Part shown: positions 21,498 to 26,279 of the stretch, one piece after another | How positions within the stretch are numbered: the first letter of the stretch is position 1 | Layout: each line of letters begins with the position of its first letter | Assembly: GCA_001516025.1 (NCBI GenBank) | Contig: LOEU01000001.1 | Location: 1-64,000, forward strand | DNA length: 64,000 nt | DNA from: a bacterium BRH_c32 | Lineage (GTDB): Bacteria; Bacteroidota; Ignavibacteria; Ignavibacteriales; Melioribacteraceae | Direction of reading: 5' to 3' | Translations under genes and position numbers: made by a program | The notes under the pieces: model-generated | What the model saw: only the letters and a program-made list of their open reading frames with translations | Database searches by the model: none | What the model was told of the DNA's origin: nothing

Positions 21498-22471
21498 TGT
21501 CCGCATTAAATATATTAATAACTCGAACTGATAGAATAGGCGATCTCGTTTTAACTCTTCCTCTTGCTTCGATTATTAAAAAACATCTCCCCGATTCCAA
21601 AATTGCTTTCTTAGTAAACGGATATACTCGTGCGCTCGCCGAGAATTGCTCTTCGATCGATGAAGTGATTATCTTTAACAGCGATAAAAAAAAACTTACC
21701 CTCTCGAAAAAGTTTGACGTAGTGATATGCGCATATCCCACATTCGATTTAGCGCGTCTCTTATTTCAATCTCGCATTCCGATGCGTATCGGCACGGGTT
21801 ACCGTTGGTATTCATTCTTATTCAATAAAAAAGTTTATGAACATCGGAAGTATGGATTGAAGAACGAGCTTGAATATAACTCAGGATTGCTTGCTCCGCT
21901 TGGAATCGCCGAGACCCCAACTTATCAAAACGTATCATTTAATCTACAACCCGACCTAAATAGTAAACAGATTATCGATGAATATTTTATTTCAGAAGGG
22001 ATCGATTCCTCCAAGAAAATCGTGATTATACACCCCGGTAGCGGTGGAAGCGCATCTGATCTCCCAAAATCGCACCTTAAAGAATTGCTCAACTTATTGG
22101 CACATAATTTGGATATTGAGATATTGATCACAGGTTCACCCGCTGAAAAGGAACTTGCATCTTATTTTGTTGTAAAAAATAACGTACATAACGCAGCGGG
22201 TCTTTTTGACCTTAGTTCTTTAATAGCACTGATTGATAGAGCTTCTTTGATGATAGCTAATTCTACTGGGCCGATCCATATTGCAGCAGCACTCGGAAAA
22301 TTCATCGTCGGATTCTATCCAAAAGCACAAGCCACATCCCCTATCCGTTGGGGTCCTTATACCGATCGGAAACTTATCTTCACTCCTAATGGCGTTTGCT
22401 TAGACTGTATGGAGACTATCGATATTCACCAAGTATTTGAGGAGATTAATTCCAAATGGGAAAATATATAA
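21497..22471 (+). CDS. Glycosyltransferase family 9 (heptosyltransferase-like)
   Basis: The 324-residue protein opens with ILITRTDRIGDLVLTLPL, the start typical of WaaC/WaaF/RfaF-type ADP-heptose:LPS heptosyltransferases. It carries the second-domain signatures IHPGSGGSASDLP (near 176) and IANSTGPIHIAAALG (near 254). The family moves heptose or a related sugar onto lipid A core or glycans on the inner leaflet. Its place beside lptE fits LPS core synthesis. The next gene overlaps it by 16 nt. Confidence 0.85.
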   Translation: MSALNILITRTDRIGDLVLTLPLASIIKKHLPDSKIAFLVNGYTRALAENCSSIDEVIIFNSDKKKLTLSKKFDVVICAYPTFDLARLLFQSRIPMRIGTGYRWYSFLFNKKVYEHRKYGLKNELEYNSGLLAPLGIAETPTYQNVSFNLQPDLNSKQIIDEYFISEGIDSSKKIVIIHPGSGGSASDLPKSHLKELLNLLAHNLDIEILITGSPAEKELASYFVVKNNVHNAAGLFDLSSLIALIDRASLMIANSTGPIHIAAALGKFIVGFYPKAQATSPIRWGPYTDRKLIFTPNGVCLDCMETIDIHQVFEEINSKWENI

Positions 22472-23226
22472 ATAAAATTTTTATCGTATTGGCACTTGTT
22501 CCGCTAATGATTTCGGCACAGAAAACTGATTTTAGAACGATCGAAAACGATGCATTCAAAGTCGGTGAAAAACTTACATTCGAAGTGAAGTATGGCTTCG
22601 TTACCGCCGGTATCGCCGAAATGGCAATTCCAAGAATGACTAAACTTTCCGGTCGTGATGTTTATAACATTACTTTCACGGTTAATTCTATTTCCGGATT
22701 CGATCCTTTGTATAAAGTTCGCGATCGATATGAAACGTATCTTGATAAAGAGGGACTTTTCCCTTGGAGATTCGAGCAGCATATTCGCGAGGGTGGATTC
22801 TCTCGTGATTTCTCTGCCTATTTCGATCATAGAAAAGGTAAAGCAAAAACTTCCGAAGGCACTTATGATATTCCACTTTATGTTAATGATATAATTTCTG
22901 CTTTCTATCTTGCACGTACTTTTAATTTCGAGAAGATGAAACCGGGAGAAGTTTTTAAATTACAGAATTTTTATAAAGATAAAGTTTATCCGCTCGATGT
23001 AGTTTATAGAGGGAAAGAGAAAATAGAAGTGGCGGCGGGAACTTATAACTGCATAATCGTAGAGCCGCTTATCGTAGAGGGCGGATTATTCAAAAGCGAA
23101 GGCAATATACTTGTATGGTTGAGCGATGATGATAATAGGATACCCGTGAAAGTGCAAACGAAAATAATTATCGGATCGATAGATGCCGAACTAATCAAAG
23201 CCGAAGGCTTAGCAAATAAGAAATAG
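22456..23226 (+). CDS. DUF3108 domain periplasmic protein
   Basis: The 256-residue protein has a signal peptide (1-21). The rest is a DUF3108 domain, recognised by FKVGEKLTFEVKYGFVTAGIAEM near 36-58, the DPLYKVRDRYETY segment and the late SEGNILVWLSDD. Function is not established; the fold resembles lipid-binding periplasmic proteins. It starts inside the GT9 gene and closes the operon. A 7-bp GC stem (23251-23257 with 23264-23270) follows but has no T-tract, so terminator status is uncertain. Confidence 0.8.
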   Translation: MGKYINKIFIVLALVPLMISAQKTDFRTIENDAFKVGEKLTFEVKYGFVTAGIAEMAIPRMTKLSGRDVYNITFTVNSISGFDPLYKVRDRYETYLDKEGLFPWRFEQHIREGGFSRDFSAYFDHRKGKAKTSEGTYDIPLYVNDIISAFYLARTFNFEKMKPGEVFKLQNFYKDKVYPLDVVYRGKEKIEVAAGTYNCIIVEPLIVEGGLFKSEGNILVWLSDDDNRIPVKVQTKIIIGSIDAELIKAEGLANKK

Positions 23227-23250
23227 AGATTATACGGTTATACTTTAGCT

Positions 23251-23422
23251 CCGAGGCATCCCCGCCTCGGATATGCTAATAAGAAAATAATGATTATCAA
23301 GTGTAACACGGAATCATAGCATTCATACCTTATCGGACTCGCTAATAGAAAATAATGATTATCGAGTATAAAATGGACTCATAGCATTCAAACCTTAACG
23401 GACTCGCTAATAGGAAATATTG
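23251..23422 (+). repeat. Hairpin and 66-bp tandem repeat after the envelope operon
   Basis: A perfect 7-bp hairpin lies at 23251-23270. It is followed by a tandem repeat: copy 1 at 23275-23340 (66 bp), copy 2 at 23341-23405 (65 bp, a few mismatches) and a 17-bp partial third copy at 23406-23422. Each copy begins GCTAATA and ends CGGACTC. This block leads directly into decamer array II and has no plausible coding frame. Confidence 0.8.
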
Positions 23423-23430
23423 TAATGGGT

Positions 23431-24340
23431 GCACCGAATCGCACCCTGCTGCACTTATCCGCGCTAGACTTCTCTCATCTGCACCCTGTTGCACTCATTA
23501 GAATTAACTCGCACTTAGCTGCACTTATTTGCATTAACTTGCACTAAACATTGAAATTCTGCACTGCTCCGCACCCGATTGCATTATTTTGCACCAAGTG
23601 GCAATTCACTGCATTCATCTGCACCAAGTTGCATTCATTAGAATTTATCTGCACTAACTCGCAACTTTCTGCATTAAATTTCCCTCGATTGCACTATTCT
23701 GAAATCTTTAGCACAAAACGCACCCACTTGCACCCTTCTGCATTATACTGTCCTTGATTGCACCGCTTTGCAATATACTGCACTTAACTTGCACTCACTC
23801 GATTTTTATTGCACCAACTTGCACTTAATCGCACTCTATTGAACTTTTCCGAATTTTATTGCACTAACTGGCTCTTATCAGCACTTTTCCGCACTACTCG
23901 GCTTTCTTCGGCATTTTCTCGCTTCCGATAGTACCTACTTCCATTTTCTAGCACTCGATAGCACTTTTCCGCACTGCTTGGCATTCTCTTGCACTGAATA
24001 GTTTTTTCCGGCACATAGTTGCACTATCTTGTTTTATATGGCACTCGGTAGTGCCTAGTTTCACCGCTCTGCACTTGATTGCAATAAACCTCACTACCTT
24101 GCACTTGCTAGCATATTATTGCTCTTACCTGCACCAAACAAAACATTTCCGCACTTATCCGCACCACTCTGCACTTTATCGCACCCACTCGCACCTTTCC
24201 GCACTCGATTGCAATAAACCGCACTGCTTTGCACTTGCTAGCACATTATTGCCCTTACCTGCACCAGACTAAACAATTCCGCATTCACTCGCTCCCTTCT
24301 GTACCGATCATGAATCTTATGTACTTGATGACACTTCGCC
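23431..24340 (+). repeat. Degenerate decamer array II (about 91 GCAC units)
   Basis: Units of GCAC plus six variable bases repeat every 10 bp for about 910 bp. By hand count 46 of about 91 units keep GCAC, and most others keep GCA, GC or a one-base variant. Phase slips only once: a 9-bp unit at about 23711 is corrected by an 11-bp unit at about 23780. A block of about nine units (24071-24160) is repeated at 24201-24290, 130 bp later. Pyrimidine-rich ends such as TTCC, CTT and ATT recur. Stop codons occur in all frames. Function unknown. Confidence 0.93.
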
Positions 24341-24569
24341 TCGGAGTAGGGTAAGATATCTTGAGTTTTTTTCCAAAAAGAGATTAACTAAACGAATCGA
24401 TTTACTTCTTGACTCTATCGATTCGAACCAAAAAGCAGAGGGATAAAAAATATTGCTCAATTAAAGGAGAGACTCTTCGAAAGAATAAGCAGTGCTGAAA
24501 ATAATTAATTTTATTAGAAAAGAGATCTGCTCCATTCATCAAATCGATTAAAATGCTTAAAGAGAATAT
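24341..24569. other. Non-repetitive spacer between array II and the nucleotidyltransferase gene
   Basis: About 230 bp without the decamer pattern follow the end of array II. A 45-codon minus-strand frame exists but has no ribosome binding site and unconvincing composition. No terminator with a clear T-tract was seen for the minus-strand gene that ends at 24570. Confidence 0.5.
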
Positions 24570-25181
24570 CTACCCATTTATTGTTCCTTTTATTGATTTG
24601 CCGGAGATAAGCTTCCCTTCTAATACAATACTATTAATTGGAGACATATTATGCTTTGCTCTTTTCTTAAATTCTCTTGAGGTGATGTAAAAAGGAGCGA
24701 ATGTTACTCCATATTCATCATAAAGATAATCCCTCAATCTCGAAACTATTTCTTCAATTCTTTTTTTATCTGAATTGTAAACTATACAAATATCCAAATC
24801 ACTTTGTGCAGTCTCTTCATTTCGCGCTGTGCTGCCAAAAAGTAATATGCTTTCGGTGGTTTTTGAAAGTTCTTTTTTAATTTTATTAAATAGTGTTTTT
24901 GTAAACTCGATTTCAGTTTCAAATATTGGTTTAATAATTTGATTATATAGAAAATGCTTTCTATTGAGAATAAAATAGTGGGACTTCCCCACGAATTCTC
25001 TTTTAACAATTTTTAGAGCTTCGAGCTTAGATAAAGCGTTATGCGCTGATTGTGGAGTAACGTTCGCAAATCTTGCAATTTCTCTGCCCGAAACTCCCAC
25101 ATTTCTTTTAGCTAATTCTCTCAGTACTGAAATTGAAGAAGGTGCAGAAAACAATTCATTTATTACTTTGTTTATTATCAT
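24570..25181 (-). CDS. HTH-nucleotidyltransferase (MNT-like) fusion protein
   Basis: From the ATG chosen here the product has 203 residues; a TTG six codons upstream is possible but lies inside the operator. An N-terminal winged helix (about 10-70, with GVSGREIARFANVTPQSAHNAL) is joined to a polymerase-beta-type nucleotidyltransferase domain with GSTARNEETAQSDLDI (about 116-131), the GSx10-DxD core. Such proteins occur as minimal nucleotidyltransferases in MNT/HEPN modules or as self-regulating enzymes. No HEPN gene is adjacent. It sits alone between two decamer arrays. Confidence 0.75.
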   Translation of the reverse strand: MIINKVINELFSAPSSISVLRELAKRNVGVSGREIARFANVTPQSAHNALSKLEALKIVKREFVGKSHYFILNRKHFLYNQIIKPIFETEIEFTKTLFNKIKKELSKTTESILLFGSTARNEETAQSDLDICIVYNSDKKRIEEIVSRLRDYLYDEYGVTFAPFYITSREFKKRAKHNMSPINSIVLEGKLISGKSIKGTING

Positions 25182-25193
25182 TTGCTTTTTCTT

Positions 25194-25232
25194 TGTCAAT
25201 ATTTATTGACATGTGTCCATTATTATTGACAC
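25194..25232 (-). promoter_or_regulatory. Paired palindromic operator upstream of the HTH-nucleotidyltransferase
   Basis: Two inverted repeats lie head to tail just upstream of the ATG at 25181: TGTCAAT-N4-ATTGACA (25194-25211) and GTGTC-N10-GACAC (25213-25232). Both arms share TGTC/GACA half-sites. An AT-rich promoter-like stretch (25232-25255) lies upstream. The gene's own winged helix is the obvious candidate binder, suggesting autorepression. Confidence 0.6.
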
Positions 25233-25288: not shown

Positions 25289-25568
25289 GCATTTTCTCGC
25301 ACTGGACTGAACTCTGCTGCACCACTTGGCATTATTTTGCACCAATCCGCACCACCCTGCACTATATTGCCCTCATTCGCACTCACCCGCACGTTATCGC
25401 ACTAAGATGCACCAATCCGTACCATCTTGCACTATATTGCCCTCATTCGCACCCACCCGCACGTTATCGCACTAAGATGCATCAACCCGCACCGCCCAGT
25501 ACGTTATCACACTAAGCTGCACCATTCCGCACCGCACCGCACTTACTCATACTCCATCACCCACCCGC
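25289..25568 (+). repeat. Degenerate decamer array III with 70-bp super-repeat
   Basis: About 28 units of GCAC plus six bases in strict 10-bp phase. Seven units (25339-25408) are repeated almost exactly at 25409-25478, and a third partial copy follows at 25479-25518 lacking three units. This array is the most regular of the three, which implies recent expansion by 70-bp steps. It lies between the operator of the nucleotidyltransferase gene and the ARPP-1 pseudogene. Confidence 0.92.
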
Positions 25569-25619: not shown

Positions 25620-26279
25620 AAATCTTTCGATTAATAATTATCCAAGGAGAAAAAACTGGTAACCAGAATTTTATCCGTGCAGTCGTATGACCACTTATCC
25701 GTAGTCCAATTCTCCACTTCCGATTATGTTGCTCCGGCGATGCTTCGAGTCCAAAAAAATTCTGACGTTTATAACAGTCTAAAAAATTCAGTCGGGTATT
25801 ATGCCGATCAGAGTATCGTGTGGCATAAAGTCCATGAAAGCATTCACAAATTCGGTATTCATTCCGAAACGGGAGACCTCGGCAGCATTTAAAAAAGAAA
25901 AGACGAAGAGATTAAATCTATCTCCTCTCACTTTAATTACGATGAAAAAGCCAACGGTCTGGCTCTCTTTAAGAATAATAAGCTCCTTAATATGGATATC
26001 TTTAATGGCTCGCAAGTATATCAGGATTATTTCCCTAAATTAATTAATGCTGCCGCAATCGATTTCCTTTATGATAAAAAAACCGATATAAAAATTGATG
26101 AGAGCGAACTAAAATATCGAACTCTCGAAACTCTCGATATGATCGATGAACTCGAGAAAAATAAATTCAAGGGTGCGGGCTTGGGCGAAGAAGAACTTTT
26201 TGAAAATAATCTCGTAACCGGTTTCAGACTAAATTACGAAGGTAAACTAATCCATCAAACAGTGATGAATAAAAATTAG
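25620..26279 (+). pseudogene. Decayed ARPP-1 (DUF6569) domain protein
   Basis: Two fragments of one protein family are visible. About 25620-25680, in one frame, encodes IIIQGEKTGNQNFI, like the N terminus of ARPP-1 proteins. The C-terminal half lies in another frame from 25677 to 26279 (YVAPAMLRVQ..., W...V, NGLALF, MDIF, RLNYEGKLIHQTV). That half is itself cut by an in-frame TAA at 25890-25892. The middle of the domain, including the usual G-x-KQNR region, is missing. An internal deletion plus a nonsense change makes function unlikely. The family assignment is from memory of its pattern. Confidence 0.6.

Follow-up and report, generated by a model that had tools for sequence, protein, structure and literature searches.

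Why should an intergenic region of the bacterium BRH_c32 (Ignavibacteria; Melioribacteraceae) carry some 90 consecutive decamers built on the core GCAC? The window analyzed here is a stretch of 64,000 nucleotides (contig LOEU01000001.1, positions 1 to 64,000 of the forward strand) from a genome of 3.49 Mb in 43 contigs; the features are listed in Table 1, where the array in question is denoted array II. A sequence-only reading of the window had described about 91 GCAC units at a 10-bp pitch, half of them retaining the core, with one slip compensated about 70 bp downstream. Direct reading and counting of the sequence bore out this description: positions 23431-24330 hold 90 decamers on the + strand, exact GCAC is present in 46 of the 90 units and at least three of the four core letters in 72, and the phase lost at a 9-bp unit (GCACAAAAC) is regained at an 11-bp unit (GCACTTAACTT) ~70 bp away. 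Toward the right, the edge of the array is soft, the last four units (24301-24340) being strongly degraded.

The per-column measurement proposed in the same reading was performed with the slip taken into account, and yielded information contents of 1.38, 1.04, 1.10, 0.83, 0.81, 0.11, 0.18, 0.12, 0.91 and 0.27 bits for columns 0-9 of array II. Pyrimidines predominate in column 4 and occupy column 8 in 89 of the 90 units (T or C, ~59:40 in an ungapped count); columns 5-7 and 9 show almost no constraint (0.1-0.3 bits). Because columns 4 and 8 are conserved in addition to the core, the consensus is GCACYNNNYN rather than GCAC. A degenerate six-unit pattern, with three or fewer mismatches allowed, gave 101 matches genome-wide (3.49 Mb) and none for the reversed control, and, among the matches listed, all were within the GCAC decamer arrays; four exact GCAC at 10-bp spacing were found 12 times in the genome, all within arrays (0 in the control). 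The GCAC decamer pattern is far above chance.

Table 1. Decamer arrays and associated features. Positions without a contig prefix are those of the window; for arrays, the strand is the one that carries GCAC.
Feature	Position	Strand	Basis
Array I, cut by the contig end	1..401	-	
DUF3108 gene, upstream neighbor of array II	22456..23226	+	
Hairpin arms TCCGAGGC/GCCTCGGA, preceding array II	23250-23271		
65-bp tandem repeat, 2.2 copies, immediately left of array II	23275..23419	+	
Array II, decamers GCACYNNNYN, n=90, intergenic	23431..24340	+	read and counted
9-bp unit in array II, phase -1	23711..23719	+	read and counted
11-bp unit in array II, phase back	23780..23790	+	read and counted
Eight-unit block, paralogous to 24201-24280	24071..24150	+	
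Eight-unit block, second copy	24201..24280	+	
One hairpin arm, recurring at the right end of array II	24338-24345		
MarR-like HTH and nucleotidyltransferase domain gene, between arrays II and III	24570..25199	-	
Array III, 27 decamers, 70-bp internal duplication	25289..25558	+	
Short frame-broken stretch resembling a decayed coding region, after array III	25640-25900		
Compact prophage-like element	C19:24200-32700 (L300:4257-12627)		
Profile R1 match outside arrays, 20.6 bits	C19:24950-24984		
Profile R1 match outside arrays, 18.0 bits	C19:28973-29005		
Second capsid operon: protease, major capsid, cement-like, small peptidase	C31:31603-35098 (L424:11603-15098)		
Longer run of CAC-rich decamers preceding a gene, ~19 units when counted loosely	viral contig L365:6850-7170		

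Arrays in the genome and the origin of their units

This genome contains four arrays, ranging from about 10 to 90 units and all intergenic, with ~185 units altogether. Array I contains an assembly break: contig C31 also ends in it, with an overlap of 38 bp, and its full length is probably ~575 bp, with its end ~70 bp short of where aspartokinase starts on C31. The fourth array, of ~11 units, is located on contig C36. Arrays I and II and the one on C36 each lie, as read on their GCAC strand, behind a gene of the same orientation; array III and the clusters on contig C19 (see below) are placed differently relative to transcription.

As judged by the ORFs and Pfam domains of the neighbors, the chromosomal arrays adjoin ordinary genes, not a phage promoter or a packaging operon. 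Orthologs of the DUF3108 protein are present in 67 of the 76 family genomes, and neither an array nor a 10-bp periodicity was found beside them at the 29 loci fetched with flanks. Arrays II and III, with GCAC on the same strand, enclose exactly the HTH and nucleotidyltransferase gene, possibly an insertion into one array. No array with the same core was detected in 58 relatives and none in 390 other genomes of the class at E below 1e-5; in a sample of the phylum, eight genomes besides this one had matches, mostly perfect or microsatellite repeats. Among the genomes searched, the arrays are confined to this one.

The arrays grew by duplication of multi-unit blocks. Apart from the paralogous eight-unit blocks of array II and the 70-bp block duplicated inside array III, array I shares an 18-unit block with the end of contig C31. 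Recent random slippage, which the sequence-only reading had set against its own interpretation, was ruled out as the origin because adjacent units are no more alike at the free columns than random units: in array II, neighbors match at 25% of these positions vs 31% expected, and in arrays I and III the lag-1 match shows no excess. When all paralogous blocks were pooled, core differences amounted to 13/208 vs 25/156 in columns 5-7 (p=0.003); on stricter block sets, p was 0.06-0.30, with the three best blocks alone not significant. Purifying selection on the core is thus suggested by the column pattern, the paralogs being no proof of it.

The main rival to a functional explanation is that the arrays are a functionless degenerate decamer satellite, that is, a short seed expanded by blocks in one lineage and then decayed, in the manner of other short tandem repeats between bacterial genes. 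This scenario, which we consider rather unlikely, is consistent with the lineage-specific and intergenic occurrence of the arrays, with the break in the assembly of array I, and with the block duplications of 70 to 180 bp, through which tandem units did arise. Hundreds of GCAC decamers in three Acidobacteria MAGs also speak for it. However, if decay were uniform, columns 5-7 could not be near random with columns 0-4 and 8 still at 0.8-1.4 bits, nor could column 8 be a pyrimidine in all units but one; the decay has a column preference, adjacent units show no extra similarity, and the clusters on contig C19 would be left unexplained. For part of the array, a functionless origin is possible.

The Acidobacteria MAGs (SJ725, SJ750 and RIFCSPLOWO2_12_FULL_66_21; L054, L084, L092 and L141) contain 184-465 GCAC decamer matches each, at many places; their free columns vary little, whereas the arrays described here combine a variable middle with strict columns. 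These decamers look satellite-like, so a GCAC decamer alone is no proof of an operator. Their form is GCACCYNYCA, and the same MAGs harbor GCAC-core arrays at ~13- and 15-bp pitch, with 7-bp repeats of the GGGATCA type nearby. The short tandemly repeated repetitive sequences of cyanobacteria, which consist of degenerate 7-bp units in tandem and are intergenic, resemble the arrays described here in these respects, but differ from them in unit length (10 bp here) and in that the arrays show column-specific conservation and have operator-like partners.

Helical geometry and transcription

The sequence-only reading had placed all the cores on nearly the same face of the DNA and, on this basis, had proposed a polymerizing protein. 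At a pitch of 10.0 bp vs 10.4-10.5 bp per turn, each core is rotated by 14-17 degrees relative to the preceding one, with a full turn every 21-26 units, so that a face is common to a few neighbors only and the array winds around the helix ~4 times. An alternation of 10 and 11 bp, which a demand for one face would favor, was not seen. The same-face basis of the proposal is therefore lost, but a cooperative or polymerizing binder is still the best class of explanation, helped by the operator-like clusters on contig C19. A rigid step of 10 bp suits a protein lattice winding round the DNA or, alternatively, duplication of a 10-bp unit.

Such a lattice could belong to a centromere-like or nucleoid-organizing array, in which a ribbon-helix-helix or similar protein would cover the decamers with a superhelical filament, in the manner of ParR on plasmid parC. 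The operators of ParR include 10-bp direct repeats (PMC5016525), and the rigid 10.0-bp pitch would impose a superhelical path; the cooperative lattice proposed here is another likeness to ParR-parC and ribbon-helix-helix centromeres. We nevertheless consider this explanation very unlikely. No partition genes flanking the arrays were found among the window ORFs and the Pfam domains of the neighbors and, unlike parC, the arrays occupy four separate places on the chromosome and lack a partition operon or a motor gene. They are also absent from the relatives searched, whereas chromosome organization should be conserved.

A long RNA of repeated short elements had been suggested as well; it could act as a sponge for a protein or an sRNA, or as an extended Rho-loading site. 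The strand that carries GCAC is poor in G and rich in pyrimidines, and three of the arrays follow a gene on the same strand, as such an RNA would have it. However, array II folds no better than its shuffles on either strand (z 0.35 and -0.28), has no match in Rfam and contains no long open frame, and the position relative to transcription is different for array III and the C19 clusters, which makes this explanation highly improbable. A coding function was rejected, with stops in all six frames and a longest open run of 107 codons; no tRNA or tmRNA was found. A sigma-54 -24/-12 element was rejected by reasoning, because its GC-to-GC distance must be 11 bp and the pitch here is 10.

Decamer clusters in prophage-like elements and phages

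Outside the arrays, profile R1, which was built from them, detected two clusters located 4 kb apart on contig C19, so these clusters were found with an array-trained profile. The next best score across the whole 67-kb contig, with no filters, is 9.8 bits. In 78 other genomes of the family, the best scores are 18.4 and 17.7 bits, both in coding genes and rejected as chance matches, and 18.1 bits, in a perfect satellite. By a rough estimate (~1e-6), a single genome is not expected to contain two such places within 4 kb by chance. A three-unit match at C4:180422, inside a coding gene and at chance level, was discarded.

The clusters belong to a compact prophage-like element that encodes an S24/CI-like repressor, a Xis/Cox-like HTH protein, a replication initiator and a DnaC-like loader, along with portal, large terminase, head protease, major capsid and cement proteins. 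No gene for a tail was recognized in this element, which may represent either a prophage in decay or a satellite that forms capsids. One cluster (GCACTAAGTT GCACTATCTT GCAATTAGTC GCAT) is located between the divergent repressor and HTH genes, and the other (GCATTTCTTT GCACTCCCTT GCACTTATAA) between the divergent terminase and protease-capsid (head) operons. Both are short (3-4 units), with the GCAC strand directed at a gene start 75-90 bp away, and the candidate DNA-binding proteins of the element are HTH_17 (C19:25000-25197) and S24. These operator-like clusters support a cooperatively binding protein on the arrays.

A related second capsid operon, without an adjacent terminase or portal, is present on contig C31; in this sister element, GCA decamers (TACAAAATTC GCAAAACTTC GCATAAATAT) occur at the same distance (122 bp) before the protease gene, although their low profile score makes this parallel a weaker one. 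Relatives of the C19 element were identified in viral contigs, most of them with a capsid protein 55-67% identical; no decamer clusters were found in the 16 that could be checked, where palindrome-like sequences are present instead.

When viral contigs were scanned for GCAC decamers, many degenerate intergenic clusters of 4-7 units were found. The preceding gene encodes the phrog_36 regulator, with similarity to sigma region 4 and DUF1492, in 6 of 28 cases; of 28 perfect decamer repeats, none adjoins such a gene. Two of the six (L167 and L377) look related. The genes that follow the phrog_36-linked clusters include those for the small and large terminase subunits, HNH and portal, and the clusters in L347, L397, L184, L188 and L160 reach up to a -10-like hexamer. 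The column-8 pyrimidine of the phage arrays is partly built into the search pattern, and without it the other matches are mostly CA-type microsatellites. A composite pattern of decamers with fixed promoter spacing found nothing in the viral contigs, and no DNA similarity was detected in named phages. Degenerate GCAC decamers mark the junction between a sigma-like late regulator and terminase in several phages, and thus provide a sequence handle for late-gene switches.

The presence of phage GCAC arrays next to terminase genes, together with the ability of small terminases to bind repeats, would fit pac-like packaging starts that are read by a small terminase and whose chromosomal copies would let the element package host DNA. 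This explanation seems scarcely probable to us: in several phages, the arrays lie just upstream of the -10-like hexamer, as an operator of an activator would, and the C19 element also has a cluster at the repressor-HTH region, far from the packaging genes.

Late-gene activators provide a closer parallel. In phage TP901-1, the activator Alt binds to four imperfect direct repeats located between -76 and -32, and Ltr of phi13 depends on a region of four repeats from -107 to -42 (PMC13123087); the phage GCAC clusters have the same layout, with repeats up to the promoter element. Like the Alt, Ltr and ArpU-phrog_36 operators, which are direct repeats at about one helical turn upstream of a phage promoter, the arrays have a pitch of this length, and the C19 clusters consist of 3-4 units beside capsid genes. 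In contrast, natural late-activator operators comprise ~4 units vs 90 in array II, and all four chromosomal arrays lie outside the prophage, with no obvious phage promoter following. No cognate sigma-region-4-like activator was found beside the arrays, and the C19 element carries HTH_17 and S24 proteins instead. A comparison of phrog_36 with the genome itself yielded partial region-4-type matches only, and 14 of 14 control genomes matched likewise, as expected for an ordinary sigma region 4.

Possible functions of the arrays

The explanation that we tentatively favor, short of calling it probable, is that the decamer is the operator unit of a cooperative regulator, multiplied into chromosomal arrays that titrate this regulator or seed a filament of it. 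GCACYNNNYN would be a direct-repeat binding site occupying 10 bp per protein, with one decamer for each protomer or dimer, and the regulator would cooperate along adjacent decamers. Three or four units would suffice to switch a promoter, so that the C19 clusters would be control elements of two divergent regulatory regions. On the chromosome, the decamer would have been multiplied by duplication of blocks of ~7-18 units, with the core kept and the free columns drifting, and the ~185 array units would load the regulator in bulk, either as a sink that titrates it away from the operators or as an assembly platform and filament seed. We infer that a single protein reads clusters and arrays, that its binding is cooperative, that titration maintains the arrays, and that the arrays confer a benefit. 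The HTH_17 and S24 proteins of the C19 element are the first candidates for this regulator.

Two known systems are close to this scheme. Excisionase and Cox proteins are small HTH proteins that read direct repeats at microfilament sites, and the Xis/Cox-like HTH gene of the C19 element is directly beside one of the clusters; natural sites of this kind have few units, in contrast to the long arrays described here. The datA locus titrates DnaA. The idea of a chromosomal site cluster that lowers the level of free regulator is the same, whereas the site and the protein differ, the regulator here being probably of the phage type.

Alternatively, the arrays could be a passive, DNA-only form of interference, in which ~185 phage-type operators would sequester the regulator of prophage-like elements, whether infecting or resident, and thereby keep their capsid and packaging genes off. 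We consider this variant distinctly unlikely. If the titration or filament explanation, or this variant, is true, the ~185 chromosomal units would represent either a regulator that coats long tracts of DNA or a decoy that controls phages without a protein of its own.
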